DNA of 64,000 bases from Yersinia bercovieri ATCC 43970. GTDB lineage: Bacteria; Pseudomonadota; Gammaproteobacteria; Enterobacterales; Enterobacteriaceae. Under the pieces are notes generated by a model. That model was given only the letters and a program-made list of their open reading frames with translations, had not been told where the DNA came from and did no database searches. The stretch spans positions 868,001-932,000 of the forward strand of contig NZ_CP054044.1 of NCBI RefSeq assembly GCF_013282745.1. Reading direction: 5' to 3'. A program made the position numbers and the translations under genes. Of the stretch, positions 8,030 through 41,131 are shown in pieces (the first letter of the stretch is position 1; each line of letters begins with the position of its first letter).

Positions 8030-8812
8030 TCAGTTCCCAAACATCAGTGCTGTCAGCACAAAATCTAATCCCAATACCGCCAGCGATGAATGCACCACGG
8101 TACGGGTCGTTGCCCGGCTAATCCCTTCAGAGGTTGGGATCGCATCATAACCATTGAACAGCGCAATCCAGGTCACGGTAATGGCAAATACCAGACTCTT
8201 AATCAGGCAATTTAGTAAATCTGTACGCCACTCAACCGCATTCTGCATCGCCGACCAGAAGAAACCGCCGTCGATCCCTTTCCAGTCAACACCGACCACC
8301 GAGCCGCCCCAGATACCCACGGCAACAAAAATCGCGGTCAATAATGGCATGCTGATAAGACCCGCCCAGAACCGAGGCGCGACTACCCGCCGCAGCGGAT
8401 CAATAGCCATCATTTCCAGGCTGGAGATCTGCTCCGTCGCTTTCATCAAGCCTATCTCAGCGGTCAAGGCAGAACCCGCGCGACCAGCGAACAGCAGCGC
8501 CGTCACCACTGGCCCCAGCTCACGTAGCAGTGACAGTGATACCATCATGCCGAGGCTAGCTTCCGCGCTATAGGTGGTCAGGATCAAAAAGCCTTGCAAC
8601 CCCAGAACCATGCCGATAAACAGACCGGAAACCACAATAATCAGCAGGGATTGCACCCCGACGCTATACAGCTGCTTGACCAATAATGGCCACTGCTTTC
8701 GCGGTTCAGGCCGCCCAACGAGGGCATTGAACAGCATTAAACCTGCGCGACCAAAGGAGGCGCAGACATTAATGCCCCGGCGACCTAAAGACGCTAACGC
8801 CTGTACTAACAT
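8030..8812 (-). CDS. mlaE: Permease subunit MlaE
   Basis: MlaE is the integral-membrane permease dimer of the Mla ABC transporter. The 260-residue protein matches the family length and shows its hallmarks: [26 protein letters not shown], then [25 protein letters not shown] with the coupling-helix region [17 protein letters not shown], and several hydrophobic helices to the C terminus. It starts 10 bases after mlaF and is followed closely by mlaD. Confidence 0.96.
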
Positions 8813-8822
8813 GAATACTCCA

Positions 8823-9626
8823 TCAGCCTAATAGCTCGGTTTTATAATCCCCGGCAGGGAAACGGAAAGGCACCGGCCCGTCGGCAATACCATCGAGGAA
8901 CTGGCGTACCCGCATATCGTCGTTGGCTTGTAACTGCTCAGGTGTTCCTTCAGCAATAACATGCTGATCTGCAACAATATAGGCATAATCGGCAATGCTG
9001 AGCACTTCGGGTACATCATGGGAAACCACCACACAGGTGACCCCCAGCGCATGATTCAGCTCATCAATCAACTTCACCAGCACACCCATGGTAATGGGAT
9101 CCTGGCCGACAAACGGCTCATCAAACATAATCAATTCAGGATCAAGAGCAATCGCCCGCGCCAATGCCGCACGACGCGCCATACCGCCAGAAAGCTCCGC
9201 GGGCATCAGATTAGCCGCGCCACGCAACCCCACTGCCTCCAGCTTCATCATTACCGTGCTGTGCAGCAGCTCTTCTGGCAAACGGCTATGTTCACGCAGT
9301 GGAAAAGCCACATTTTCGAAGACGGTTAAATCAGTAAATAGCGCCCCGGATTGAAATAACATGCTCATTTTCTTGCGCACATCATACAAACGCTGACGTG
9401 AAAGCGTCGGAATATTATCACCATCAAACCAGATTTCGCCGGCATCTGGAGCAAGTTGCCCACCAATCAGACGCAGCAGCGTGGTTTTACCTATACCTGA
9501 AGGCCCCATAATCGCAGTCACTTTGCCGCGCGGGACCGTCATATTGATATCGGCGAATATCGGACGCTCACCACGGGTGAAACTCATCCCCTGGATCTCT
9601 ATCAAATTCGACGCCATTTGATTCAT
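8823..9626 (-). CDS. mlaF: ATP-binding subunit MlaF
   Basis: MlaF is the ATPase of the MlaFEDB phospholipid transporter. The predicted 267 residues carry Walker [10 protein letters not shown] (about 40), the Q-loop ([11 protein letters not shown]), the ABC signature LSGGMARR and Walker B ELIMFDEP followed by the H-loop VVSHD. The C-terminal extension [21 protein letters not shown] is the segment that contacts MlaB in the neighbouring protomer. I chose MNQMASN as start by alignment with E. coli; the frame is open 11 codons further up. It is the first gene of mlaFEDCB and divergent from yrbG. Confidence 0.94.
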
Positions 9627-9898
9627 TATCATTCGTCCTTTGAGCCTTTTATTACTCATCCAGCCGCCAATGCTACATCAAATGGCCGCAACGAGCGCAA
9701 TTGGGAAGTAGTTTGGCAATTTATTACTGTTTTTTCGTAGCCAAAGTTGCCATAAGTTTTACTTTTCTGACTCTCGCAGTCAAAATTAGAGCCTAAGCAA
9801 AAATAAGTGTGAACACCTATTGTCAGCCATTTTTTGCCAACGGGCTATCTGTTACCAGCAGCCAATGGATCGGGATTATACCTAATAAAGGACTCTGC

Positions 9899-10873
9899 AT
9901 GTTTCTTGCGATAACACTATTAATCATTGGCTTGGTTTTATTAGTGTATGGCGCTGATCGATTAGTCTACGGCGCAGCGGTGTTATCCCGCTCTTTCGGT
10001 ATTCCGCCGCTCATTATTGGGATGACCATTGTGGGGATCGGCACATCGCTGCCAGAGTTGATTGTTTCGGTGACTGCGGCCCTCAATAACCAGACCGATA
10101 TGGCGGTCGGCAATGTGCTTGGTTCCAATATTACCAACCTGTTGCTGATTGTGGGTGGCGCCGCCTTAATACGCCCGTTGACCGTGCGCTCAGAGATTTT
10201 GCGCCGTGAATTACCCTTAATGTTGCTGGTCACGGTGCTGTGTGGCTTCCTATTGGCCAATAATCATCTCAGCCGTGGGGATGGGATTATTTTGCTGCTG
10301 GCGGCGGCGGCATTTATTGTCCTGATGCTTAAAATTGCGCGACTGGCCCATGCGGAGGGAAATGATATCCTGACCCGCGAACAGTTGGCTGAATTACCGC
10401 AGGACAGTAGCACCACCGTGGCCCTATTGTGGTTAGTGCTGGCCTTCATTATTTTGCCGCTGTCGGCCAAAATGATTATTGATAATGCGACGGTTATTGC
10501 CCGCGTCGCTGGCGTCAGTGAGCTGGTCATTGGCTTGACCGTGATTGCTATCGGCACCAGTTTGCCTGAACTGGCGACATTCATTGCTGGCGCGTTGAAG
10601 GGCGAAGATGATATGGCGGTCGGTAATATCATCGGATCAAATATTTTTAATATTGTGATTGTGTTAGGTGTACCTGCGCTGCTATCCCCGGGTGATATTA
10701 ACCCAGAAGCTTTTCAGCGGGATTATTGGGTGATGCTCGGTGTTAGCGTGATATTCACGATTCTTTGTCTGGGCCGTAAACATCGAATCGGCCATATGGC
10801 GGGTGCTCTGTTATTATGTGGGTTCATCGCTTATCTTGCGGTGCTGTTTTTCGCCCCTTTTAGGGTGGTGTAG
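9899..10873 (+). CDS. yrbG: Sodium/calcium exchanger family protein YrbG
   Basis: This inner-membrane cation antiporter of the CaCA superfamily is predicted at 324 residues, like E. coli YrbG. The two inverted repeats each hold an alpha motif: GIGTSLPELIVSVTAAL and AVGNVLGSNITN (about residues 40-80), then AIGTSLPELATFIAGALKG and AVGNIIGSNIFN (about 220-255). These carry the Glu and Asn residues that bind cations. I chose the ATG before FLAITLLI; a 30-codon upstream extension is unlike the family. It heads the kdsD-lptB gene cluster. The physiological ion is unknown. Confidence 0.92.
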   Translation: MFLAITLLIIGLVLLVYGADRLVYGAAVLSRSFGIPPLIIGMTIVGIGTSLPELIVSVTAALNNQTDMAVGNVLGSNITNLLLIVGGAALIRPLTVRSEILRRELPLMLLVTVLCGFLLANNHLSRGDGIILLLAAAAFIVLMLKIARLAHAEGNDILTREQLAELPQDSSTTVALLWLVLAFIILPLSAKMIIDNATVIARVAGVSELVIGLTVIAIGTSLPELATFIAGALKGEDDMAVGNIIGSNIFNIVIVLGVPALLSPGDINPEAFQRDYWVMLGVSVIFTILCLGRKHRIGHMAGALLLCGFIAYLAVLFFAPFRVV

Positions 10874-14425: not shown

Positions 14426-15859
14426 ATGAAGCAAGGTTTGCAACTCAAGTTCAGCCAACAACTGGCAATGACTCCGCAGCTTCAACAGGCTATTCGTCTG
14501 TTGCAACTCTCTACACTTGAACTCCAGCAGGAGATTCAGTTAGCGCTGGAGAGCAACCCCCTGCTTGAGCAAACGGATCTTCATGAAGAGATAGACGCCA
14601 AAGAGACAGTAGACAGTGAAGCGCTTGATACTCGCGAAGCGCTGGAACAAAAAGATATGCCAGAAGAGTTGCCGCTGGATGCCACCTGGGATGAGATCTA
14701 CACCGCAGGTACGCCATCAGGAATGGGCAACGATTACAGTGATGATGAGCTACCGGTCTATCAGGGTGAAACCACCCAAACACTGCAAGATTATCTCATG
14801 TGGCAGGTGGATTTAACCCCCTTCTCTGAAACCGATGCCGCCATCGCGACCTCCATTGTCGACGCAGTTGATGAAACCGGCTATCTCACCGTCCCGCTGG
14901 AAGATATTCTGGAAAGCATGGGTGACGAGAACATCGCGCTAGACGAAGTCGAAGCCGTACTCAAGCGGATACAGCACTTTGATCCCATTGGCGTGGCAGC
15001 GCGTAACCTGCGTGAATGTCTGTTGGTGCAGCTATCGCAATATGCCAAAGATACCCCTTATCTTGCCGAAGCTCGCTTGGTCGTTAGTGACTATCTGGAT
15101 TTGCTAGGCAACCATGATTTCCGCACAATGATCCGTTTAAGTCGGCTAAAAGAAGATACACTTAAGGAAGCGATCGCCCTGATTCAGTCACTGGACCCAC
15201 GACCGGGCCAGTCGATCAATACCGGCGAATCTGAGTATGTCATTCCCGATGTTTTGGTCCGTAAAGACAAAGATCAATGGACGGTCGAGCTAAATGCCGA
15301 TAGCATTCCACGCCTAAAAATTAATCAACACTATGCTGCCATGGGTAATAATACTCGTAATGATAGCGACGGGCAGTTTATCCGCAGCAATCTGCAAGAG
15401 GCAAAATGGTTGATAAAAAGCCTTGAAAGCCGCAATGAAACGCTGCTGAAGGTCGCGCGTTGTATTGTAGAGCAGCAGATCGCATTTTTTGAAAATGGGC
15501 CTGAGTTTATGAAACCCATGGTACTGGCTGACATTGCCCAAGCCGTAGATATGCATGAATCGACCATCTCCCGCGTGACCACGCAGAAGTTCCTGCACAG
15601 CCCTCGGGGGATTTTCGAGTTGAAATATTTCTTCTCCAGTCACGTCAACACCGAGAGCGGAGGCGAAGCCTCTTCCACCGCAATTCGTGCACTGGTGAAA
15701 AAATTGGTTGCGGCAGAAAACCCTGCCAAACCCCTTAGCGACAGTAAGCTGACCACACTATTATGTGAACAAGGCATCATGGTGGCACGGCGAACCGTCG
15801 CGAAGTACCGAGAGTCGTTATCCATCCCGCCGTCGAATCAACGTAAACAGTTGGTTTGA
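14426..15859 (+). CDS. rpoN: RNA polymerase sigma-54 factor RpoN
   Basis: RpoN is the sigma factor for nitrogen-regulated and other enhancer-dependent promoters. The 477 residues equal the E. coli length. Region I is Gln- and Leu-rich ([20 protein letters not shown] onward) and is followed by an acidic region II. The core-binding domain is at about 110-300. The helix-turn-helix is in the C-terminal part, and the RpoN box [10 protein letters not shown] lies near residue 455. It is followed by hpf, ptsN, rapZ and npr, the classic rpoN/PTS-Ntr cluster. A candidate sigma-54 promoter for the Anbu operon lies at 20889-20903. Confidence 0.98.
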
Positions 15860-15882
15860 CCTGAACTGAGAAGGAAGAGACT

Positions 15883-16170
15883 ATGCAGCTCAATATTACC
15901 GGACATCATGTTGAAATAACCGAAGCATTACGTGAGTTTGTTAACACTAAATTTGCCAAACTTGAGCAATATTTTGATCGCATTAACCAAGTGTACGTGG
16001 TTTTAAGTGTCGAAAAAGTAAAACAAATTGCAGAAGCCACGGTACATGTGAATGGAGGCGAGTTGCACGCGAGTTCAGAGCAGGAAGATATGTACGCCGC
16101 AATTGATATTTTGGTTGATAAACTGGCCCGCCAGTTGAACAAGCATAAAGATAAATTGAAACAACATTAA
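15883..16170 (+). CDS. hpf: Ribosome hibernation promoting factor HPF
   Basis: HPF binds the 30S decoding centre and helps dimerise 70S ribosomes in stationary phase. The 95-residue short-form protein has the S30AE/YfiA fold. It shows MQLNITGHHVEITEALREFV at the N terminus, the ASSEQEDMYAAIDILVDKL segment and a basic tail (NKHKDKLKQH). It lies 23 bases after rpoN with a good GGAAG ribosome site. Confidence 0.96.
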   Translation: MQLNITGHHVEITEALREFVNTKFAKLEQYFDRINQVYVVLSVEKVKQIAEATVHVNGGELHASSEQEDMYAAIDILVDKLARQLNKHKDKLKQH

Positions 16171-16226
16171 GAATCCTTGTAGCTATTATACCTAACGAAG
16201 GTTCTATACGCGCGACATAACCCGAG

Positions 16227-16254
16227 CCAGCGGTGAAGAACAGATCACCGCTGG
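16227..16254 (+). terminator. Hairpin between hpf and ptsN
   Basis: A perfect 10-bp stem (CCAGCGGTGA and complement) with an 8-base loop is followed by only TTTGGG. It may be a partial terminator or an RNA-processing/stability element between hpf and ptsN. Confidence 0.55.
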
Positions 16255-16289
16255 TTTGGGCTTAAAATAGCGCTTAAGTGAAAGATGAG

Positions 16290-16772
16290 ATGATCAACGA
16301 TCCAGCATTGCAATTAAGCTCGGTATTAAATATCGAGTGCACCAAAAGCGCCGTACATTGCTCAAGTAAAAAACGGGCTTTGGAAATTATCAGCGAGTTG
16401 GCTGCCAAACAGCTAAACCTGCCTTCACAGGTCGTTTTCGATGCTGTATTGACCCGTGAGCGCATGGGCAGTACCGGCATTGGTAGTGGCATCGCGATAC
16501 CTCATGGCAAACTGGAGGAAGATACGCTGCGCGCCGTGGGTGTGTTTATCCGCCTGGAACAACCCATTGCCTTCGATGCTATTGATAATCAACCTGTTGA
16601 TCTATTATTTGCCTTGTTGGTTCCGGCAGATCAATGTAAAACTCACTTACACACTTTGTCTTTAGTGGCCAAGCGATTAGCTGATAAAACAGTGTGTCGC
16701 CGTCTACGTGCAGCACACAGTGATGATGAGCTTTATCAGATCATTACAGAGTTACCGCCAGAAACGGCGTAA
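16290..16772 (+). CDS. ptsN: Nitrogen PTS enzyme IIA-Ntr (PtsN)
   Basis: PtsN is the output phosphoprotein of the nitrogen-related PTS and controls potassium uptake and other targets through its phosphorylation state. The predicted 160 residues form one EIIA-fructose-type domain. The phospho-accepting His72 sits in GIAIPHGKLEED. I chose ATG 16290 (MINDPALQL) because it aligns with the E. coli start; a GTG four codons upstream is the alternative. The partner NPr is encoded two genes downstream. Confidence 0.95.
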   Translation: MINDPALQLSSVLNIECTKSAVHCSSKKRALEIISELAAKQLNLPSQVVFDAVLTRERMGSTGIGSGIAIPHGKLEEDTLRAVGVFIRLEQPIAFDAIDNQPVDLLFALLVPADQCKTHLHTLSLVAKRLADKTVCRRLRAAHSDDELYQIITELPPETA

Positions 16773-16889
16773 ACGGGTAAAGGGTGCCTAGCAGCGCGGG
16801 TCTATTCGCAAACCCGCCTGTTATAGCCGGAATGTCGATTCGTAATAGTGGCGATGAGCGCCAAAGAGATACCAAGGGGAGTCACTCAC

Positions 16890-17744
16890 ATGGTGCTGAT
16901 GATTGTCAGCGGCCGTTCCGGTTCAGGGAAGTCTGTTGCTTTACGCGCATTGGAAGATATGGGCTTTTACTGTGTCGATAACTTGCCCGTGGTTCTGCTG
17001 CCGCAATTGGCAAACACACTTGCCGGTAGGAATATCTCAGCGGCAGTGAGCATAGACGTGCGCAATATGCCAGAATCTCCCGAGGTATTTGAACATGCCA
17101 TGACTCAATTGCCAGACAGTTTCTCACCGCAGTTGCTGTTTTTGGATGCTGACCGCAATACCTTGATTCGTCGCTACAGTGATACCCGTCGCCTGCACCC
17201 GCTTTCGGCGAAAAATCTGTCATTAGAAAGTGCTATTGATGAAGAGAGTATCCTGCTGGAGCCTCTGCGCTCACGGGCTGATCTGGTTATTGATACCTCA
17301 GAAATGTCAGTGCACGAGTTAGCTGAGATGCTGCGTACCCGCCTGTTGGGTAAACGTGAGCGCGAACTAACGATGGTGTTTGAGTCATTTGGCTTCAAGC
17401 ACGGAATTCCCATTGATGCCGATTATGTTTTCGACGTACGTTTCCTGCCGAACCCACACTGGGACCCGAAACTACGCCCGATGACGGGTCTGGACAAGCC
17501 GGTCATCTCCTTCCTTGATCGCCATACTGAAGTGCACAATTTTGTTTACCAGACACGCAGCTATCTGGAACAGTGGCTGCCCATGCTGGAAACCAATAAT
17601 CGCAGTTATCTGACGGTTGCCATTGGTTGTACCGGCGGTAAGCACCGCTCGGTCTATGTAGCTGAACAATTGGCAGATTATTTCCGCGCTCGTGGCAAAA
17701 ATGTCCAATCACGCCACCGTACTCTGGAAAAACGTAAACAATGA
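16890..17744 (+). CDS. rapZ: RNase adapter protein RapZ
   Basis: RapZ binds the small RNA GlmZ and presents it to RNase E, coupling glucosamine-6-phosphate level to glmS expression. The predicted 284 residues match E. coli. Walker A GRSGSGKS is at about 8-15. The C-terminal metabolite and RNA-binding domain includes [11 protein letters not shown], and the extreme C-terminal basic patch is [12 protein letters not shown] chose the ATG before VLMIVSG by alignment. The last 4 bases overlap npr (ATGA). Confidence 0.97.
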
Positions 17745-33325: not shown

Positions 33326-33377
33326 GCGATTGATTCGTTTGAGGTGAGAGTTAAATTCGACTCAAACAATCAATCGC
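33326..33377. terminator. Inverted repeat between mgtA and the PRD regulator
   Basis: Bases 33326-33343 pair with 33361-33377 as a 17-bp stem with a single bulged base and a 17-base loop. The stem lies between the convergent mgtA and regulator genes and covers the regulator's stop codon. It lacks strong T tracts, so it is a likely but unproven bidirectional terminator. Confidence 0.6.
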
Positions 33378-35279
33378 GATGGCCTTAAAACTATCAAAAT
33401 GCTGACTACTCAACAGACGGCTCATGGAGCGCTCGCGCACAAAGGTGACGAACAGATCGTAAATCGCCATCGCCTCTTCATAATCGGTTTTACTGATGGC
33501 CAGCAAGAAGATGACATAGGCCACTTCGCCATCCCCCCAGGCAATACCATTGGGGGCCAGCAGTGTCACCACCACCGTTCTCTTCGCCAATAAGCCCAGT
33601 GAATGTGGCAGCGCGATCCCCTCGCCTAGCATGGTGGAGACAATCGCCTCCCGCTCAACTACTGACGGGTAGAAATCGGCATCAACAAACCCTTCCGCCT
33701 CCAGCTGACAACAGACTTTCTCAAACAGCTGTGCCTGTGTTATCGGCTGGTCGATAATCATAAAGTGCTGGCGATCAAAGAACTTTTCCAACATGTAGGG
33801 GCGAGTTCGATCCACCAAGACTAGCTTGCCCAACTGCTCCAGCTGATACTCGGTCGGGAATGGCGACATCACCACCACTGGCTTGTTTTTCTCAGCTAAT
33901 CGCGAGTTGGAAATAACGAAATCTTCGTCGATATGGTGGAGAATTTCGTAATCACGTAGGGAAATGGTCTGTGTCATCACAATTTGCGGATACTTACGGG
34001 AAATCTGCGCCTGGATCATACGGGTGGTGGAGTTACCAGTATCACACACCAACATCACCTGCGGATGGCGCTGATAACCAATATTGTAATGGCGCTCCAG
34101 CCCCACCCCAATATGCAGCACCAGATAGCCAATTTCATTCTCACTCAAGCTGTAAGGGGTATATTTTCCCCAACTGGATACCGCCGCCAGCGTCACATCA
34201 TAGGCCATCGGATAGTGCTGTTTAATATTGGATAACAACGGGTTAGGAATGGTTATCTGATACTTCACCCGCGTGATCATGGTTTTGATATGGGTGAGCA
34301 GATCACAGCGCAACTGCTTATCGCCCTGCAAATTGTAATTATAGTGCGCGTTGATATAAGAGAGGATGTAATCCACCAGCGTCTCTTCATCATCAGCATT
34401 GATTTCACTTGGCCGGCTACTGCCAGACGGGTTGGTTTGCACCCGACGGGCGGCAATATTGACCCGTAAATAGGCCTCTTCCGCCGCCGAAATATCTTTT
34501 TTGGACAGTGACTTAAGCTCATTTGCCAAGCGGCCTGATGCCAGTTTCACCGCCTCATCCACATCTTCGGCGTCAAAATCGGATAACGGATAGCCATCAG
34601 TGATCCGTTTTATCGCCACCGCACAGTAAAAAATCAGGTATTGCTCACCTTCATCAGTCAGCCGCACCCCATATTGATCCAGTAGCGCGTGTAATCTTTC
34701 GGTCAAATCCGGGATGGCCTGAATGCTCAGAAACTCATTTTTTAATAATGGGTTATCGGTGTCTTGCAGTTGTAGCTGGAACAAAAGATCCGTCAGACAG
34801 GTGCGGATCGCCAACTCCGCGCCAAATAATTTCATGCCATAGCGGGGCTTGGTTTCAATCGTCAAATGGTAGCGGTTCAGCCTCTCTCTCACCTCAGCCA
34901 TATCATTTTGCAATGTGCCACGACTGACAAACCATTCATCGGCTAAATCTTCCAGCTTCAATGAAAAAGCGGAGGTCAGAAAACGGATTAACAGATAGTG
35001 CACTCGCTCATTGGCAGTGCGCGGGGTTAAATGCGTTTTACGGTTTTGCTGCTGCAGAGCACGAAAGCGCTCGGCGTCATCGATCATTAACCGATAACCA
35101 AAGCCACGGTTATGTACAAAATGTGCACCATAATGCTCAAGAATTTCATTCAACGCCGTGATATCTGCCCGCACAGTACGTGTCGAGACCGCAAAGCGCT
35201 TCGCCAGCTCATCCTGAGGCAGCGTCTCCGATTGCAGTGCATCGAACATATAGGCCAGACGTTGATAGGGAAATCTCAC
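33351..35279 (-). CDS. PRD-domain transcriptional regulator with PTS EIIB/EIIA modules
   Basis: This 642-residue regulator of the MtlR/LicR type starts at a GTG. The order is: N-terminal helix-turn-helix (ELAKRFAVSTRTVRADITALN, about 24-44), a second wing-type domain (about 85-170), two PTS-regulation domains (about 180-400), an EIIB-like domain with Cys in VCDTGNSTTRM, and a C-terminal EIIA fructose/mannitol domain with His in IALPHSLGL. Such proteins are activators tuned by phosphorylation from HPr and an EIIB partner. It is the last gene of the operon-like run to its right and probably controls it. It is not a BglG-type RNA antiterminator, because it has DNA-binding domains. Confidence 0.88.
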   Translation of the reverse strand: MRFPYQRLAYMFDALQSETLPQDELAKRFAVSTRTVRADITALNEILEHYGAHFVHNRGFGYRLMIDDAERFRALQQQNRKTHLTPRTANERVHYLLIRFLTSAFSLKLEDLADEWFVSRGTLQNDMAEVRERLNRYHLTIETKPRYGMKLFGAELAIRTCLTDLLFQLQLQDTDNPLLKNEFLSIQAIPDLTERLHALLDQYGVRLTDEGEQYLIFYCAVAIKRITDGYPLSDFDAEDVDEAVKLASGRLANELKSLSKKDISAAEEAYLRVNIAARRVQTNPSGSSRPSEINADDEETLVDYILSYINAHYNYNLQGDKQLRCDLLTHIKTMITRVKYQITIPNPLLSNIKQHYPMAYDVTLAAVSSWGKYTPYSLSENEIGYLVLHIGVGLERHYNIGYQRHPQVMLVCDTGNSTTRMIQAQISRKYPQIVMTQTISLRDYEILHHIDEDFVISNSRLAEKNKPVVVMSPFPTEYQLEQLGKLVLVDRTRPYMLEKFFDRQHFMIIDQPITQAQLFEKVCCQLEAEGFVDADFYPSVVEREAIVSTMLGEGIALPHSLGLLAKRTVVVTLLAPNGIAWGDGEVAYVIFLLAISKTDYEEAMAIYDLFVTFVRERSMSRLLSSQHFDSFKAIAIDCLSRI

Positions 35280-35325: not shown

Positions 35326-35357
35326 CCATCCCCTGCCAGCATCTGCGCAGGGGATGG
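35326..35357 (-). terminator. Strong hairpin after the aldolase gene
   Basis: CCATCCCCTGC at 35326-35336 is perfectly complementary to GCAGGGGATGG at 35347-35357. The 11-bp stem lies between the aldolase stop and the regulator start. No immediate T run follows on the minus strand, so it may be a partial terminator or mRNA stabiliser that separates enzyme and regulator expression. Confidence 0.6.
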
Positions 35358-35475
35358 TCTCACCAAGTGCCAGGGTCAATTTGCCACTTTGTGGATCAAT
35401 TTTAAAGCGGCTTCTGCTATCGCGGTGCTGATTCAGCGCCTACAGGCAGTGGTTGTCGAGTACCTGTATCGGTCG

Positions 35476-36216
35476 TTACACCACGATCTTTTTGACGATA
35501 TCCAATAATGTTTTTACATCTTGCGGGCGGGTATTGCCCGTTTTGCTGTCGATAATTGAGCTGTAGATGTGCGGGATGATTTTTGTCACTCCGGCATCCA
35601 GTGCGATCTGCACAATTTGCTCGAAATTATCCAGATCGATACCACCCGTTGGCTCCAGCCAGAAACCGGTCGCCGCACAAGCTTCGGCGACAAATCGATA
35701 CTCGTCGATAGAGTCCAAGCCGTTCATTGGGAAGAATTTTATCGAGCTGCCGCCCATATCTTTCAACATGGCAATAGCGGTGGTGACCGCAACGATCGCG
35801 TCTTTCTGCTGTGAGCTGAGGGGGCCGGTGGAGATCTTCACATACCCCACTTTACCGGTCGGTGAGACCAGGCCGTTAACCACCGTCTCCTGCTGCCCCA
35901 GCAGAGCGCGACTCGGGCCGACGCCAGTAAATACCTGATTTACATGCTGTGGTTTCAGCTGCTGCACAATCTGGCTAACCATCGTCGATTGCTTAGGATC
36001 ACCCGCACCCAACCCGACGGATAGAGCATTATCGATAAGTGCCGCATACTCGCGCATCTCTTTCACCGCGCTGTCGACATCAGGGTAATTTTTCGATAAC
36101 ACCCCCACCAACACATGGCCTTCGGCGGCCTGGTAGATCTCACGCGCATTCTCTTTTGAACCGGCCAGCACATTCAGACACACCCGATCACGGTAATAAT
36201 TTGGGGTCAATTTCAT
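35476..36216 (-). CDS. KDPG-type aldolase (DgaF-like)
   Basis: This 246-residue TIM-barrel aldolase belongs to the 2-dehydro-3-deoxy-6-phosphogluconate aldolase-related family that includes Salmonella DgaF. The Schiff-base Lys is probably Lys160 in GGSSIKFFPMNG. The glycine-rich phosphate loop is EPTGGIDLDNF. The expected reaction is cleavage of 2-keto-3-deoxygluconate-6-phosphate to pyruvate and glyceraldehyde-3-phosphate. It follows the DgaE-like gene by 3 bases, so the two are almost certainly co-translated. Confidence 0.85.
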   Translation of the reverse strand: MKLTPNYYRDRVCLNVLAGSKENAREIYQAAEGHVLVGVLSKNYPDVDSAVKEMREYAALIDNALSVGLGAGDPKQSTMVSQIVQQLKPQHVNQVFTGVGPSRALLGQQETVVNGLVSPTGKVGYVKISTGPLSSQQKDAIVAVTTAIAMLKDMGGSSIKFFPMNGLDSIDEYRFVAEACAATGFWLEPTGGIDLDNFEQIVQIALDAGVTKIIPHIYSSIIDSKTGNTRPQDVKTLLDIVKKIVV

Positions 36217-36219
36217 GGC

Positions 36220-37332
36220 TTAGGCTCCCTTAATCAGCTGGTTGATACAGCGGTAAATTGTTTCGAGTTGCGGTGGTGTTACACTGCGAACATCCACTTC
36301 AATCTTACCTTCGTTGGCTTTGTAGGCACGGAAATAGATGGCAATATCACCATTTTTTAGCGCATCAACCAGATCTGGTGTCGAGCGGCCGATTTTGGCT
36401 TCATCAAAACTGATCTCAGTGCGGGCAATATCGCGCCCAGCCGCATCCCAAACCACTTTGGCGCAGACGCCGTCGATGCTATTCAGTTGGGTGATGAAAG
36501 GCGTAATCTTCGCCACCATCTGCTGGCCGCTCTCTTTTTCCAGTGTCATGTAGCTTTCAATGGCGCGGGTTAGGCCGAGGATACCCTCTTTACCCACTTT
36601 CATCGCCCGACCAATGCCGTTTGATTGCAGTTTCACCCAATCAACATAGGTTTTCTTACCTAAGACCAATCCGCTGGTCGGCCCTTCAATAGCTTTGGCC
36701 CCACTGTAAATCACCAAATCAGCGCCCATTTGGTAGTAACAGAGCAGATCTTCTTCCGCTGCCGCGTCAACGATTAATGGCAGTTGATGCTTGCGGGCGA
36801 TGACCACCGCTTGCTCAACCGATAAAATGCTTTTTTGCACACAATGGTGGGATTTTATATACAAGATCGCCGCTGTATTGCGCGTGATCGCCGCTTCTAG
36901 CTGTTCAGGCAAACACTCATTGGCATAACCGGCTTCCACCACTTTACCGCCACCCAAGGTCACCATGGTATCAACTGGCGCACCAAAGTTAACATTGTGC
37001 CCCTTCGGCAGCACAATTTCATTGGGCACCGTGCGGGGTGCGGCATGAAGATTGACCAGCAAATTCGCATCATCTTTCACGATCACGGCAGCGACGGATT
37101 GCGCAACTCCGGCAGAGGCGCAAGAGACCACCACCGCGCTCTCAACATTTAGTAAATCGGCAATGTAAGCGCCGGTTTTATTCACCAGATCTTTCATTTC
37201 AAAGTAGTGATTTAGACCCAGCTCCACGGCGTCAATCACCTCTTGCCGTGGTGTTGAAACCCCAAGCATCGTCATACGGCCAGAGGCATTAATCACATGT
37301 TTTAGCTGGTATTTCTCATAAACTGAAGACAT
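36220..37332 (-). CDS. PLP-dependent D-glucosaminate-6-phosphate ammonia-lyase-like enzyme (DgaE-like)
   Basis: This 370-residue fold-type I PLP enzyme is of the SelA-like/DgaE family. The PLP Lys is probably Lys213 in YSGAKAIEGPTSG, preceded by the Asp in LIVDAAAEED. Salmonella DgaE converts D-glucosaminate-6-phosphate to 2-keto-3-deoxygluconate-6-phosphate plus ammonia. Older annotation calls it selenocysteine synthase-like, but there is no tRNA-Sec context here. It overlaps the upstream amidohydrolase by 17 bases and precedes the aldolase by 3 bases. The exact substrate could differ in stereochemistry from glucosaminate. Confidence 0.82.
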   Translation of the reverse strand: MSSVYEKYQLKHVINASGRMTMLGVSTPRQEVIDAVELGLNHYFEMKDLVNKTGAYIADLLNVESAVVVSCASAGVAQSVAAVIVKDDANLLVNLHAAPRTVPNEIVLPKGHNVNFGAPVDTMVTLGGGKVVEAGYANECLPEQLEAAITRNTAAILYIKSHHCVQKSILSVEQAVVIARKHQLPLIVDAAAEEDLLCYYQMGADLVIYSGAKAIEGPTSGLVLGKKTYVDWVKLQSNGIGRAMKVGKEGILGLTRAIESYMTLEKESGQQMVAKITPFITQLNSIDGVCAKVVWDAAGRDIARTEISFDEAKIGRSTPDLVDALKNGDIAIYFRAYKANEGKIEVDVRSVTPPQLETIYRCINQLIKGA

Positions 37333-38485
37333 CTTTTAACTTCCCTTCGTCAGTTAACACTAAGTCACCGGCCACCACCGCAGCCAGTGGCACCAGATAC
37401 TGTTCACCGGTGACCGATTTACCTTCCGAATCGCTGAATACCTGCGGCTGCTGTTTCAGCTCAAAAATAGTCAGGTCAGCATCATAGCCCTCAGCCACGA
37501 CCCCTTTATGGCTCAGGCGCAGCGCTTGGGCGGCATTTTCGGTTACACAGCTGATGACCTGTTCCAAGTTTAGGCCGATGGTGAAAAATTTGGACATCAC
37601 GCTCGCCAGGCTATGCACCGGCCCACTTATGCGGTTGCGGCAATAGATGTCGGAGCTGATGGTGTGCGGGTAGATACCTTGCTTGATGGCAAGCTCGGCA
37701 ACCTCAAAGCTGAAACTGGCGCTACCATGGCCCACATCCAGCAACACGCCGCGTTTTAGTGCGCGCTGAATAGATTCACGCAAAGCCCCCGCAGGGGTCA
37801 GAATTCGGTTGGGTTTGCCGTTATAGCAATGAGTAATAATGTCGCCCTGCGTCAGTAAATCGGCAATTTCATCCAGATCCGGCGGGTTATTGCCAATGTG
37901 CACCATCAGCGGCAACTGGTTGTTCTCTTGCTGGATCTCTTTGGCGCGAATCAGCGGCTTAATACCGTTTTTACCCACCACACTGCTACTCATTCGGGCC
38001 TTAATGCCGATAATGAAATCGGGGTTACGAGCAATCGCCTGACTGACACTTTGCTTATCAATCTGCGCCATATCAGCTAATTCGTTTTGCGTGACGATGC
38101 CGGTTTTTGCAATATTTAAAAAAGCATAAACATGGGTTTTGGCCGCGCGAGTCAGGCGGTAGAAATCATCAATATCATTGGCACCCGTGCTGCCGGCATC
38201 CACCACCGTGGTCACGCCACTGGCAACACCAACTAAATCAGCTTCGTCATGATAAATAGGCGATGCGGGGTAGCAGTGAACATGGGAATCAATCCAGCCG
38301 GCACTGAGATAATATCTCCCAGCCAGATCCAGGACTTTTTTGGCCGGATAAAAAGGGGGTTCAATTTGGTTATTTTCAACCGCAGCAATAGTCGCGCTCA
38401 CCGCCGTTATTTTTCCATCATTAATGGCAATATCCACCTGATGGCCATTAACCAATAGTGCCCGAGTGATAATAAAGTCATGCAT
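37316..38485 (-). CDS. Amidohydrolase/deacetylase family metallohydrolase
   Basis: This 389-residue dihydroorotase-like amidohydrolase has metal ligands His68 and His70 (DSHVHCYP), a possible carboxylated Lys162 (IGIKARMS), His196 (LMVHIGNN), His219 (IITHCYNG) and a late Asp (TISSDIYCRN). It belongs to the family found with EF_083x-type operons and has no proven substrate in that context. Given the DgaE/DgaF-like genes that follow, removal of an acyl group from an acylated amino-sugar acid (phosphate) is the simplest inference. Its 3' end overlaps the DgaE-like gene. Confidence 0.85.
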   Translation of the reverse strand: MHDFIITRALLVNGHQVDIAINDGKITAVSATIAAVENNQIEPPFYPAKKVLDLAGRYYLSAGWIDSHVHCYPASPIYHDEADLVGVASGVTTVVDAGSTGANDIDDFYRLTRAAKTHVYAFLNIAKTGIVTQNELADMAQIDKQSVSQAIARNPDFIIGIKARMSSSVVGKNGIKPLIRAKEIQQENNQLPLMVHIGNNPPDLDEIADLLTQGDIITHCYNGKPNRILTPAGALRESIQRALKRGVLLDVGHGSASFSFEVAELAIKQGIYPHTISSDIYCRNRISGPVHSLASVMSKFFTIGLNLEQVISCVTENAAQALRLSHKGVVAEGYDADLTIFELKQQPQVFSDSEGKSVTGEQYLVPLAAVVAGDLVLTDEGKLKDVFSL

Positions 38486-38567
38486 TATCTTTATTCTCCG
38501 TTATACCCTTCTTACTGAGTATCGCAGCGGGGTAAATATCCGGTAATTTGAATATTCCCCCCGAAGT

Positions 38568-39221
38568 TCAGGAAATCGCGACCGGGAAAATAGACCCTAA
38601 AATCATGGCACCCAAAATTGCGCCACCGGTTATAGGTTTATTCCACAGATAAAACAGTAATGCGCCACCTAAAGAGCCGATACCAATGGGAATTGATGCA
38701 GTAATCGCGGACAGAATAATCAGTGGCCCCAAAAAGCGGCCCGATGAGTTACCTGCGCCCATCATGACATCTGCACCGTAAGTCGAATTACTTTGGTTAA
38801 TCGTAAATTTACGTGCCAAAATAATCAGATAGCCGATAGCTAGACCAATTATCAGGCCGGTCACCAAGGAGGCGGCAAAATTGGCCACCGGGAACACAAA
38901 TCCAGCCCCCAGCAATAATGCCGGCACACCCAAACCTACGCCGGTTTGAATCGCACCACCGATATCTAAAATACCGACCAGCGAACCTTCAATAATACGG
39001 GCAAATAAGAAGCTGGCACCAAATGCAGCCACTGCCCCATAAACCCCGGTATCCATTCCTGCACGTAGCATTGAAACAAATGCCACTTCGTTAAATGCGC
39101 CGATACCATATAAATAGTACATATGAGTACCCGCAAACACGCCGGAAGATAATAGCCCTACAAAGATCGGAAAGGACCAGTCGGCATACCAGAAATTATT
39201 CTTGGTTTGTTCATCCATCAT
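38568..39221 (-). CDS. DUF4310 family membrane protein
   Basis: This 217-residue, strongly hydrophobic protein is of the DUF4310 family. About six membrane segments can be drawn (near residues 14-40, 58-76, 80-110, 113-140, 160-185 and 193-215). A conserved loop STYGADVMMGAGNSSGRFLGP lies before the last two. No known transporter signature is visible. It is always seen with DUF4311, DUF4312 and SFCGS proteins, so it is probably one half of a membrane complex for substrate uptake; that is inference. Confidence 0.8.
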   Translation of the reverse strand: MMDEQTKNNFWYADWSFPIFVGLLSSGVFAGTHMYYLYGIGAFNEVAFVSMLRAGMDTGVYGAVAAFGASFLFARIIEGSLVGILDIGGAIQTGVGLGVPALLLGAGFVFPVANFAASLVTGLIIGLAIGYLIILARKFTINQSNSTYGADVMMGAGNSSGRFLGPLIILSAITASIPIGIGSLGGALLFYLWNKPITGGAILGAMILGSIFPVAIS

Positions 39222-39239
39222 TAAGCTCCTCTCGCTGTG

Positions 39240-40022
39240 TTATTTTCCGCTCAATGCGTTATGAATGGTATCGAGCCACACGGGCACACCCAGACTGAAT
39301 GACTCCAGGAATTTCATGTCGAATCCACGGAAGAAGCCACTGAGCACGAACAGCAGCACAATCACTGTCATCATGATTTTTGTGACTTTATTCCAGCCGC
39401 TCTCCTCAACCCCTTTACCAATTAAAATACCCAGAACCAGACCCGGAACGGCATTACCCATAATTAACTGCGCCAGGCCGCCGAAAATAGTGGCCCAGAA
39501 ACCAGAACGACGTCCGGCATCAATGGCGGCTAGCCAGAAAATAACCGGCATCACGGTGTTAACCAGAATATTAGCGGCCGGCACCAAGACCTTAATTGCC
39601 GTAACCTGTAATGCAGCCGGAACCGCTGAAGCGGTAGTATTGAGGAAGCTGACGACAATAACCCCGATAATGCCGCAGGCAATCGCCATCTTTTTCGGGT
39701 TATGCATGGTTTCCGCCACATTGCGATTTTTAATCATCAATGCTGCAGCACCCCAGTTCGGAATAATGCGGTGGTCGACATCCTGAGTAAAGGCCCCAGC
39801 GGCAACCGACGAGGCCCAGGCGTTGAAGAAGAAGCCTAGCCCGAAGGAGAAATGCGATGCCGGATCGCCCTCACACGAGTTCAACTCGCCCAAGGTACGA
39901 AATGCGCCCATGCCCTGTATTGTCGGCGCATGGAACATGCGGGCGGCCCCAACACCAACCCCCACGCCGACCAGTCCGCCGATAATAATCGACTTAAAAA
40001 GAATAATTAAAAACATCAACAT
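39240..40022 (-). CDS. DUF4311 family membrane protein
   Basis: This 260-residue protein is of the DUF4311 family, with about six or seven hydrophobic segments. The N-terminal region is glycine/valine-rich (IIIGGLVGVGVGVGAARMFH) and is followed by a conserved cytoplasm- or substrate-facing stretch, GMGAFRTLGELNSCEGDPAS. The proline- and asparagine-containing VPAANILVNTVMPVIFWLAA suggests a pore-lining helix. It lies 18 bases upstream of DUF4310 and is probably its partner in the membrane. Confidence 0.8.
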   Translation of the reverse strand: MLMFLIILFKSIIIGGLVGVGVGVGAARMFHAPTIQGMGAFRTLGELNSCEGDPASHFSFGLGFFFNAWASSVAAGAFTQDVDHRIIPNWGAAALMIKNRNVAETMHNPKKMAIACGIIGVIVVSFLNTTASAVPAALQVTAIKVLVPAANILVNTVMPVIFWLAAIDAGRRSGFWATIFGGLAQLIMGNAVPGLVLGILIGKGVEESGWNKVTKIMMTVIVLLFVLSGFFRGFDMKFLESFSLGVPVWLDTIHNALSGK

Positions 40023-40101
40023 ATCCTTTCATCTATAAGTCACACCCAAGCAATTGAAGTTGCAGCTAGCTGCAAATAACAGTGCGGTGGGAATAGACTT
40101 T
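40023..40101. other. Spacer with short palindrome between DUF4311 and DUF4312
   Basis: This 79-base spacer contains GCAGCTAGCTGC (12-bp palindrome) in a TTGAAGTTGCAG context. A related but diverged motif occurs at 50483-50502. It could be a remnant of a dispersed intergenic repeat. Confidence 0.35.
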
Positions 40102-40398
40102 TTATTTAGAAACGAAGACAACCTTTTCTGTGTCAATAATTGTCACGTTCACGGTAATATCTAATTCAACACTGTATGTTTTTCTTTCTCGCGGCAGAAA
40201 AAAGAGTAAAAACTTCTCTTTTTTCACTGATAATTCGGCGCGTAATACTTTGACGTCTTGTGGTTCAATCCGTAACAGAATATTTTGCGTCGACTTCAAC
40301 ACCGTATTTTGGACATTACCCAGTGCATTGGCGAAAGCTTTACCCTTAGTATCGCCTTTGCCTTTTACCTGCACCTGAGTGGTATATTGTTCTTTCAT
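40102..40398 (-). CDS. DUF4312 family protein
   Basis: This 98-residue soluble protein of the DUF4312 family has no membrane segment. It is basic, with a KGKGDTKGKAFANALGNVQNTVL stretch near the N terminus and a beta-rich C-terminal half. Its start codon overlaps the SFCGS stop by one base. Function is unknown. It may act as a cytoplasmic coupling subunit of the DUF4310/DUF4311 membrane pair. Confidence 0.78.
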   Translation of the reverse strand: MKEQYTTQVQVKGKGDTKGKAFANALGNVQNTVLKSTQNILLRIEPQDVKVLRAELSVKKEKFLLFFLPRERKTYSVELDITVNVTIIDTEKVVFVSK

Positions 40399-40763
40399 TA
40401 CGGCTGACCATATTTCTTGATATACGCTTCCACTAATTTCTGCCCTAACTCTTCTTTATCCATAAATCCGAAGCCTAATACCTTGCAGCCTTCATTTATT
40501 GCGGTCACACCCTCTTCGACTGAACGCATACCGTATTTTGCTTTGTAGCCATACTTATTTTGGGCCGTAATAGCACCCGCACCGCCGCTACCACAAAATG
40601 AGATACCGAAGTCTGCTTGTTCGCTATTCATCACATCACCCAGTTTCATGTCTGCGGCAACACCGGGAATAACCACCACGCGGCCACCAGCCAATTCAAC
40701 ACCTTGCCCAACTTTTTGGCCTTTACCTAAACGGTCGCCAATTACAACGGTAATTTGACTCAT
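40398..40763 (-). CDS. Glycine-rich SFCGS family protein
   Basis: This 121-residue cytoplasmic protein is of the glycine-rich SFCGS family. Cys57 lies in GISFCGSGGAGA, a Cys-Gly-Ser-Gly loop after a beta strand. The overall pattern (beta strand, Cys, glycine-rich loop, helix) resembles the phosphorylated Cys loop of PTS EIIB domains of the galactitol/lactose type. I infer, but cannot show, that it carries phosphate on Cys57. It lies between the PRD gene and DUF4312 with minimal spacing. Confidence 0.8.
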   Translation of the reverse strand: MSQITVVIGDRLGKGQKVGQGVELAGGRVVVIPGVAADMKLGDVMNSEQADFGISFCGSGGAGAITAQNKYGYKAKYGMRSVEEGVTAINEGCKVLGFGFMDKEELGQKLVEAYIKKYGQP

Positions 40764-40786
40764 AGTCTCTTCTCCAGATGACTGTT

Positions 40787-41131
40787 TTATGGGTTATTAT
40801 CTTTCGCTACTTCAAAATGCACCGATAACAAATAAGCCTCTTCAATCGGCAAATTGGCAAACCTGTCGACAACTTGCTGGGCCATTTGCATTGAATGTGC
40901 TGAAATTTCATCAAATAATGATTTATCCACCTCAGGTAATGGCTCGCCAGTGATTGAACGTAACACCATGGCCCGAATATGTGATGTCAACATTTGCTGC
41001 TGCACATCGTTGGTGAAAATGTTTTCGGCATTTAACATCACGGTAATTTCAGCTAATACCCGCTCAGTGATGATATTTACCTCTGCGACTCCAGGTTCCT
41101 CGGCTGCATTCAATGTGACTACATCATTCAC
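40787..41131 (-). CDS. Stand-alone PRD (PTS regulation domain) protein
   Basis: This 114-residue protein consists of a single PRD domain. It has the two His residues expected as phosphorylation sites, in TSHIRAMV (about residue 49) and LLSVHFEV (about residue 107), and no DNA-binding module. It is the first gene of the operon. It may sense the HPr or EIIB-like phosphorylation state and modify the regulator at the far end of the locus, or be a subunit of the permease. Confidence 0.78.
   Translation of the reverse strand: MNDVVTLNAAEEPGVAEVNIITERVLAEITVMLNAENIFTNDVQQQMLTSHIRAMVLRSITGEPLPEVDKSLFDEISAHSMQMAQQVVDRFANLPIEEAYLLSVHFEVAKDNNP

Follow-up and report, generated by a model that had tools for sequence, protein, structure and literature searches.

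A nine-gene operon of Yersinia bercovieri proposed to take up and degrade an acylated amino-sugar acid

What do two membrane proteins and two small proteins of uncharacterised families do in one operon with enzymes that appear to belong to sugar-acid breakdown? The question is raised by a stretch of 64,000 nucleotides of Yersinia bercovieri ATCC 43970 (contig NZ_CP054044.1, positions 868,001 to 932,000), here called the window, in whose coordinates the positions of its genes are given. An earlier note on this DNA had proposed that these proteins, of the families DUF4310, DUF4311, DUF4312 and SFCGS, form an uptake system for an acylated amino-sugar acid which an amidohydrolase, a DgaE-like lyase and a DgaF-like aldolase then degrade. 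The explanation that best covers the whole is that nine genes make up an operon for the catabolism of an N-acylated 2-amino-2-deoxy-aldonic acid taken up by the DUF module, and we regard this as moderately probable, with N-acetyl-D-glucosaminate as the leading candidate for the substrate. Taken on their own, a sugar-acid pathway is very likely, and a role of the DUF module as transporter only a little less so. It is from gene content, gene order, conserved residues and context that we infer every reaction and the transport.

The nine-gene unit

The listing of open reading frames (ORFs) has exactly eight consecutive minus-strand genes between 35476 and 41131, just as had been noted, and a ninth gene in the same direction, a regulator at 33351-35279, belongs to the unit. 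When the proteins were typed with Pfam and NCBIfam (rows at E up to 1), eight of the nine passed curated NCBI family models, and the NCBIfam cut-offs of TIGR03577, TIGR03578, TIGR03579, TIGR03580, TIGR03581, TIGR03582 and TIGR03583 were every one exceeded by window proteins. The first gene encodes a small PRD protein of the EF_0829 family (40787-41131, 114 residues; TIGR03582 131.2 bits, cut-off 69.35), and is followed by those for the SFCGS protein (40398-40763, 121 residues; TIGR03577 224.5 bits, above cut-off) and for DUF4312, a small soluble partner (40102-40398, 98 residues; TIGR03578 130.3 bits, above cut-off). Two polytopic membrane proteins come next, DUF4311 (39240-40022, 260 residues; TIGR03580 502.9 bits) and DUF4310 (38568-39221, 217 residues; TIGR03579 390.7 bits), which are candidate permease subunits 1 and 2. 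The enzymes are an amidohydrolase/deacetylase of the EF_0837 family, the proposed N-deacylase (37316-38485, 389 residues; TIGR03583 550.6 bits), a DgaE-family ammonia lyase dependent on pyridoxal phosphate (36220-37332, 370 residues; TIGR01437 592.4 bits, cut-off 385.3) and a KDGP (DgaF-type) aldolase (35476-36216, 246 residues; PF07071, TIGR03581 and NF047796, the last with 399.7 bits over a cut-off of 300). The regulator, with the Pfam domains HTH_11, Mga, PRD, PRD and EIIA_2, closes the unit.

The DUF genes had been described as joined to a catabolic cassette, but this is not a local join. In a first set of 93 loci DUF4311 was present in 91 and the exact nine-gene order in 77, the remaining 14 being nine short or cut-off stretches, four loci whose ORFs are split or whose DUF4312 went unmatched, and Enterococcus faecalis, where the regulator precedes the other genes. 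A second set was put together for breadth and takes in further families of the same order; it comprises 30 loci, of which 10 are shared with the first, and all nine genes were matched in every one. The total counts below are over 104 loci. The nine-gene unit is widespread, its order is fixed and it spans distant lineages, and its distribution is patchy: carriers made up 7 of 299 genomes in a phylum sample, 30 of the 247 genomes from the order of the window's genome (above cut-off), and none of the 377 from an order outside its class, presumably the Rhizobiales of the Alphaproteobacteria, that was searched for further carriers and HPr-EI neighbours. The whole unit is also found on two Bartonella plasmids, and six records of a plasmid collection have DUF4311. 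Among named relatives Yersinia species come nearest, and the DUF4311 of Y. aleksiciae and of Y. aldovae is 100% identical to that of the window; the database proteins listed include DUF4311 of named Aeromonas, Gilliamella and Vibrio, and by the names listed the DUF families occur in many enterobacteria, in Aeromonas and Vibrio relatives, in Enterococcus and in lactobacilli. The window's genome has one DUF4311 copy and one DgaE-family protein above cut-off.

No relative of the operon was found in a viral contig collection, nor near-identical DNA in E. coli genomes. The window held no RNA family at gathering score, and promoter-like and terminator-like sites were in no excess over shuffled sequence. 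Matches of E. coli to PF14188 below its cut-off were set aside, as were the weak matches L088 and L089, the former presumably a DjlA-type protein, as judged by eye.

Enzymes, lactonase and the proposed pathway

The aldolase exceeds the cut-off of the DgaF equivalog NF047796, which bears out the claim that it is DgaF-like and makes 2-keto-3-deoxy-6-phosphogluconate (KDPG) the likely intermediate; its best-scoring solved chain is 3lm7. The lyase aligns with Salmonella DgaE (7lc0), for which the available extract of the published study names Arg-301, Arg-332 and Arg-346 for phosphate and His-163 for proton transfer (PMC9529869). In the alignment these residues named in the extract correspond to R304, R335, R349 and H163 of the window's protein. 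All four are present in 102 of 102 distinct rows, drawn from the full-length ORFs of 101 of the 104 loci plus the window, as is K213; H162 is present in 100 of 102, its position being Ala in the Bartonella protein. A comparison of eight proteins found the equivalent of Arg-346 to be Arg in the six with an adjoining aldolase and Cys in relatives from Rhizobium and Sagittula, whose annotated neighbourhoods list no aldolase, the other two phosphate arginines being kept in all eight. This conservation of phosphate-binding arginines makes it likely that the substrate of the lyase is phosphorylated.

The amidohydrolase is the proposed deacylase. Its residues H68, H70, K162, H196, H219 and D279, which we take to be the metal ligands of a binuclear amidohydrolase (HxH, K, H, H, D), are found in 103 of 103 rows and were aligned with 2ics and 2ogj, which together with 8wzy are its solved relatives. 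Literature searches on the DUF and TIGR names gave nothing relevant, and neither did those on the amidohydrolase and its structures.

A further enzyme may act ahead of these in some relatives. A full-length lactonase-like gene occurs in 32 of the 104 loci, and where the gaps were mapped it lies between the aldolase and the regulator; all eight of those tested were typed as PF10282, and the starts of all 15 that were read by eye are signal-peptide-like. The lactonase is probably periplasmic or secreted, which suggests that the lactone would be opened before uptake. Seven of the 11 named Yersinia loci (L002-L012) keep the full-length gene, and the window has a remnant of it on the minus strand at about 35356-35463. 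When the gap alone was searched the remnant matched the L002 lactonase by tblastn with 58% over 38 columns (E 1e-10) and an internal stop, and by blastn it matched L005 with 86% over 79 bases (E 3e-23). Other contents of the same interval were also seen: that of Y. aldovae (L003, 14500-16040) is long and has a long ORF on the opposite strand, with no lactonase found there, and one relative (L197, 3167-5382) has a CesT-like chaperone gene and a 587-residue ORF without a family match.

The proposed pathway would begin, in those relatives that have it, with the probably periplasmic lactonase opening the lactone. DUF4311 and DUF4310, aided by DUF4312 and SFCGS, would carry the acid across the membrane, and the module may deliver it phosphorylated. 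The amidohydrolase would remove the acyl group, the DgaE-type enzyme would release ammonia to give KDPG, and the aldolase would split this into pyruvate and glyceraldehyde-3-phosphate, with the two PRD proteins coupling expression to phosphorylation by the phosphotransferase system (PTS).

Uptake, the source of the phosphate and rival explanations

That the DUF genes are the uptake system is best supported by an exchange of transporters, in which the uptake system is the part that is replaced. When the plasmid collection was searched with the amidohydrolase and DgaE, 60 of 218 and 60 of 255 records were listed and five were opened, one of them unannotated. Two Firmicutes plasmids among these, neither of which is one of the six DUF4311 records, have the same three enzymes without DUF genes. 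On the Priestia megaterium plasmid, genes for a sugar kinase, a GntR regulator and a gluconate:H+ symporter come after the three enzymes, and a symporter of this kind suggests a sugar acid as the substrate. On the Clostridioides difficile plasmid a PTS IIB, a IIA of lactose/cellobiose type, a regulator, a IIC and MupG stand ahead of the enzymes, with a sugar kinase after them. The exchange suggests that the DUF module is an uptake system, and by this context the earlier proposal of such a role, and with it the interpretation overall, is upheld in part.

That no ordinary EIIA, EIIB, EIIC or EIID gene is present had been said of the eight genes and is true of them, but the ninth carries an EIIA_2 domain whose histidine H559, in the motif ALPHS, is found in 101 of 102 rows, so that the regulator does contain an EIIA-type domain. 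Among the Pfam and NCBIfam rows listed, no gene of the nine matched the mannose-family PTS IIA, IIB, IIC or IID. In the small PRD protein H51 and H105 are present in all 102 distinct rows. Residues were filtered as His or Cys in 90% of rows, or Asp, Glu, Lys or Arg in all; at this level neither SFCGS nor DUF4312 has a conserved His, and R43 is the sole residue of DUF4312 to pass (98 rows), a protein that has no hydrophobic segment. In SFCGS, which matched no EIIB model of Pfam or NCBIfam, C57 in a CGSG loop is present in 91 of 91 rows; the protein is a candidate phospho-cysteine (EIIB-like) or sugar-phosphate-binding subunit.

Directly downstream of the operon a gene for HPr-EI was found in two of the 104 loci, both on Bartonella plasmids and typed for its domains in one; it lies at 8047-10062 in Bartonella sp. 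HY406 (L091) and at 15405-17420 in Bartonella sp. HY761 (L093), with type VI secretion genes after it in each. The kinases of E. faecalis, Clostridioides and Priestia are relatives of one another, at 36-40% identity, that of E. faecalis scoring best on models of KDG/KDPG-kinase type, below their cut-offs, and homologues of these Firmicutes operon kinases occur in only one of the 104 DUF loci, of which at least two end before the enzymes. Three carriers estimated to be 100% complete (G488, G528 and G615) have no KdgK above cut-off. Together with the two PRD proteins, the EIIA_2 domain and the SFCGS cysteine, these observations make phosphorylation during uptake plausible, although we hold it only tentatively and at less than even odds. 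Its most specific form, that DUF4311 and DUF4310 with SFCGS (RpiB-like, with a phospho-cysteine) and DUF4312 are a PTS enzyme II that phosphorylates N-acyl-aminoaldonates as they enter and belongs to a family without sequence kinship to the known ones, with the EIIA domain of the regulator as donor, is more doubtful still.

Several observations weigh against the reading of an N-acylated amino-aldonic acid taken up by the DUF module. The N-acyl group would follow from the family of the amidohydrolase only. The claim of a DgaE-like lyase holds at the level of the family TIGR01437, but the DgaE equivalog NF047797 was missed, with 367 bits against a cut-off of 600, and the exact sugar may therefore differ. 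The transporter exchange is seen in two records, both of plasmids, and in E. faecalis the module is not simply exchanged, since the cluster there combines the DUF genes with a lactose/cellobiose-family EIIC, a 99-residue protein without a family match, MupG and a kinase. Neither DUF4310 nor DUF4311 matched a PTS membrane family (EIIC or EIID) of Pfam or NCBIfam at E up to 1, and the structure check that had been suggested for the pair gave AlphaFold2 models of middling confidence (mean pLDDT 73.4 for DUF4311 and 74.4 for DUF4310) with no match in the PDB at E<=0.001. A KdgK above cut-off is encoded outside the operon in 26 of the 30 carrier genomes, the window's own included, so an operon without a kinase does not force phosphorylation during uptake and the argument from the absent kinase is weak; HPr-EI, moreover, could serve the PRD regulators alone. 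Chitin oxidised by lytic polysaccharide monooxygenases was considered as a general source of the substrate but is not supported as one: LPMO_10 was found in 11 of 30 carrier genomes and 53 of 217 non-carriers, eight of the 11 belong to one genus and the window's genome has none, so that these genes do not track the operon.

A rival that overlaps with the preferred reading keeps the same pathway and differs in the coupling: DUF4310 and DUF4311 would be an ion-coupled, non-phosphorylating carrier, the PTS would act on the PRD regulators only and a cellular kinase would add the phosphate. The widespread KdgK, the plain gluconate:H+ symporter of the Priestia version and the want of an EIIC or EIID family match all favour this, and HPr can act on PRD regulators. 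KdgK, however, acts after DgaE, yet DgaE retains its phosphate-binding arginines, and to this are added the three carriers without KdgK and the rarity of the operon kinases in DUF loci; we give such a carrier a real chance, though clearly short of an even one. It is improbable, by comparison, that the DUF module is a membrane-bound sensor or enzyme complex with uptake left to another, unlinked permease. The resemblance of SFCGS to a sugar-phosphate isomerase, the coexistence of DUF genes and EIIC in E. faecalis and the models without a transporter fold match would fit it, but the unit has two strongly conserved polytopic proteins, there is no other transporter gene among the nine, and on two Firmicutes plasmids it is known transporters that take the place of the module.

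The substrate might also be a different derivative, for instance a non-sugar D-amino acid with an O-acyl or N-acyl group, or an epimer of glucosaminate; we think this unlikely, if less so than a sensor. It would account for the missed DgaE equivalog; a relative of the amidohydrolase in Sagittula lies beside ATP-binding cassette (ABC) transporters and RidA, and cog3964 enzymes reportedly hydrolyse acetyl-(R)-mandelate and, weakly, N-acetyl-D-serine. The KDPG-type aldolase over its equivalog cut-off, the lactonases, the gluconate symporter and MupG point instead to sugars.

Should uptake and breakdown of acylated amino-sugar acids be the function of the operon, four families of unknown function would gain one testable job, the uptake of these acids, a route for the use of oxidised amino sugars would be defined and the hypothetical proteins EF_0829-EF_0839 would become a pathway that can be assayed step by step. 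If uptake is coupled to the PTS, it would add a new architecture to a textbook transport system.

Likeness to known systems

The families TIGR03577-03583 are already named and uncharacterised. The window genes are members of the TIGRFAM cluster EF_0829-EF_0839 / AHA_3910-3917, seven of them in hypothetical families numbered after EF_0829-EF_0839, and DUF4311 and DUF4310 are 67% and 69% identical to those of E. faecalis. Unlike the window, E. faecalis adds the EIIC, 99-residue protein, MupG and kinase, none of which was matched in the other 103 of the 104 loci. According to the available part of one study, the E. faecalis antiterminator NagY, investigated in connection with N-acetylglucosamine metabolism, has among its targets ef0834 (PMC12502629), which by gene counting is the EIIC of this cluster, and the available part of another records that a fragment with the putative promoter of ef_0839 or ef_2975 was found in a urine screen (PMC2912369). 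The aldolase appears as two ORFs and is left unannotated in the E. faecalis record (L090, 18573-19315). A few database proteins (P0052, P0093, P0097 and P0102) fuse DUF4311 to DUF4310, and may be real fusions or sequencing errors. A relation between DUF4311 and DUF4310 themselves was rejected, hhalign giving about 1%, and 190 of 500 shuffles reaching the score in a separate comparison.

The RpiB/LacAB isomerases resemble SFCGS, whose residues 44-116 align with RpiB, including the Cys of the CGxG loop, but SFCGS is shorter and its score on LacAB_rpiB (PF02502; 16.5 bits, E 0.0086) is under the Pfam gathering score of 24.7. By hhalign it reached 81.6% with RpiB, represented by a profile built from five sequences of one genus, and 24.4% with DUF2620 (YhfU; Pfam E 0.036), eight unrelated control pairs giving 0.1-0.3%. 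Counting against the likeness to RpiB are a value of 0.2% with a second LacAB-type family and one of 3.4% between YhfU and RpiB. The catalytic His of RpiB presumably has no counterpart in SFCGS, as no His is conserved there.

The uncharacterised yhf operon of E. coli (YhfT, YhfU, YhfS, Php, YhfY) likewise has an SFCGS-like protein, a membrane protein and a small PRD protein. YhfU is distantly SFCGS-like, with 27% identity and the Cys kept, and the small PRD protein resembles YhfY (BLASTP 3e-7 for the single pair, hhalign 71%), which scores 28.4 bits on TIGR03582, below cut-off. The enzymes differ, none of six yhf proteins scanned matched DUF4312, and YhfT has no detectable relation to DUF4311 or DUF4310; that it might be a homologue of the two fused, as a motif seen by eye had hinted, was not supported, with hhalign values of 0.1% and 0.3% and, in a separate comparison, scores reached by 269 and 89 of 500 shuffles. 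A DUF2620 (YhfU-type) locus is present in the window's genome too, at G000:C1:193807-194145 (L104, L169).

A further close comparison is with the Salmonella dga operon for D-glucosaminate, which has the DgaABCD PTS, DgaE and DgaF. The phosphate arginines and His-163 given for DgaE in the extract (PMC9529869) are shared with the window's lyase, and the window's aldolase is above the DgaF equivalog cut-off. The window's lyase, however, is below that of DgaE, and the window has no mannose PTS and adds the amidohydrolase, the four DUF-type genes and the PRD regulators. The nine genes would encode a pathway of the dga type whose uptake module is unstudied, and the transport of a sugar acid by that module is backed by the exchange of transporters and by a lactonase that is probably secreted.

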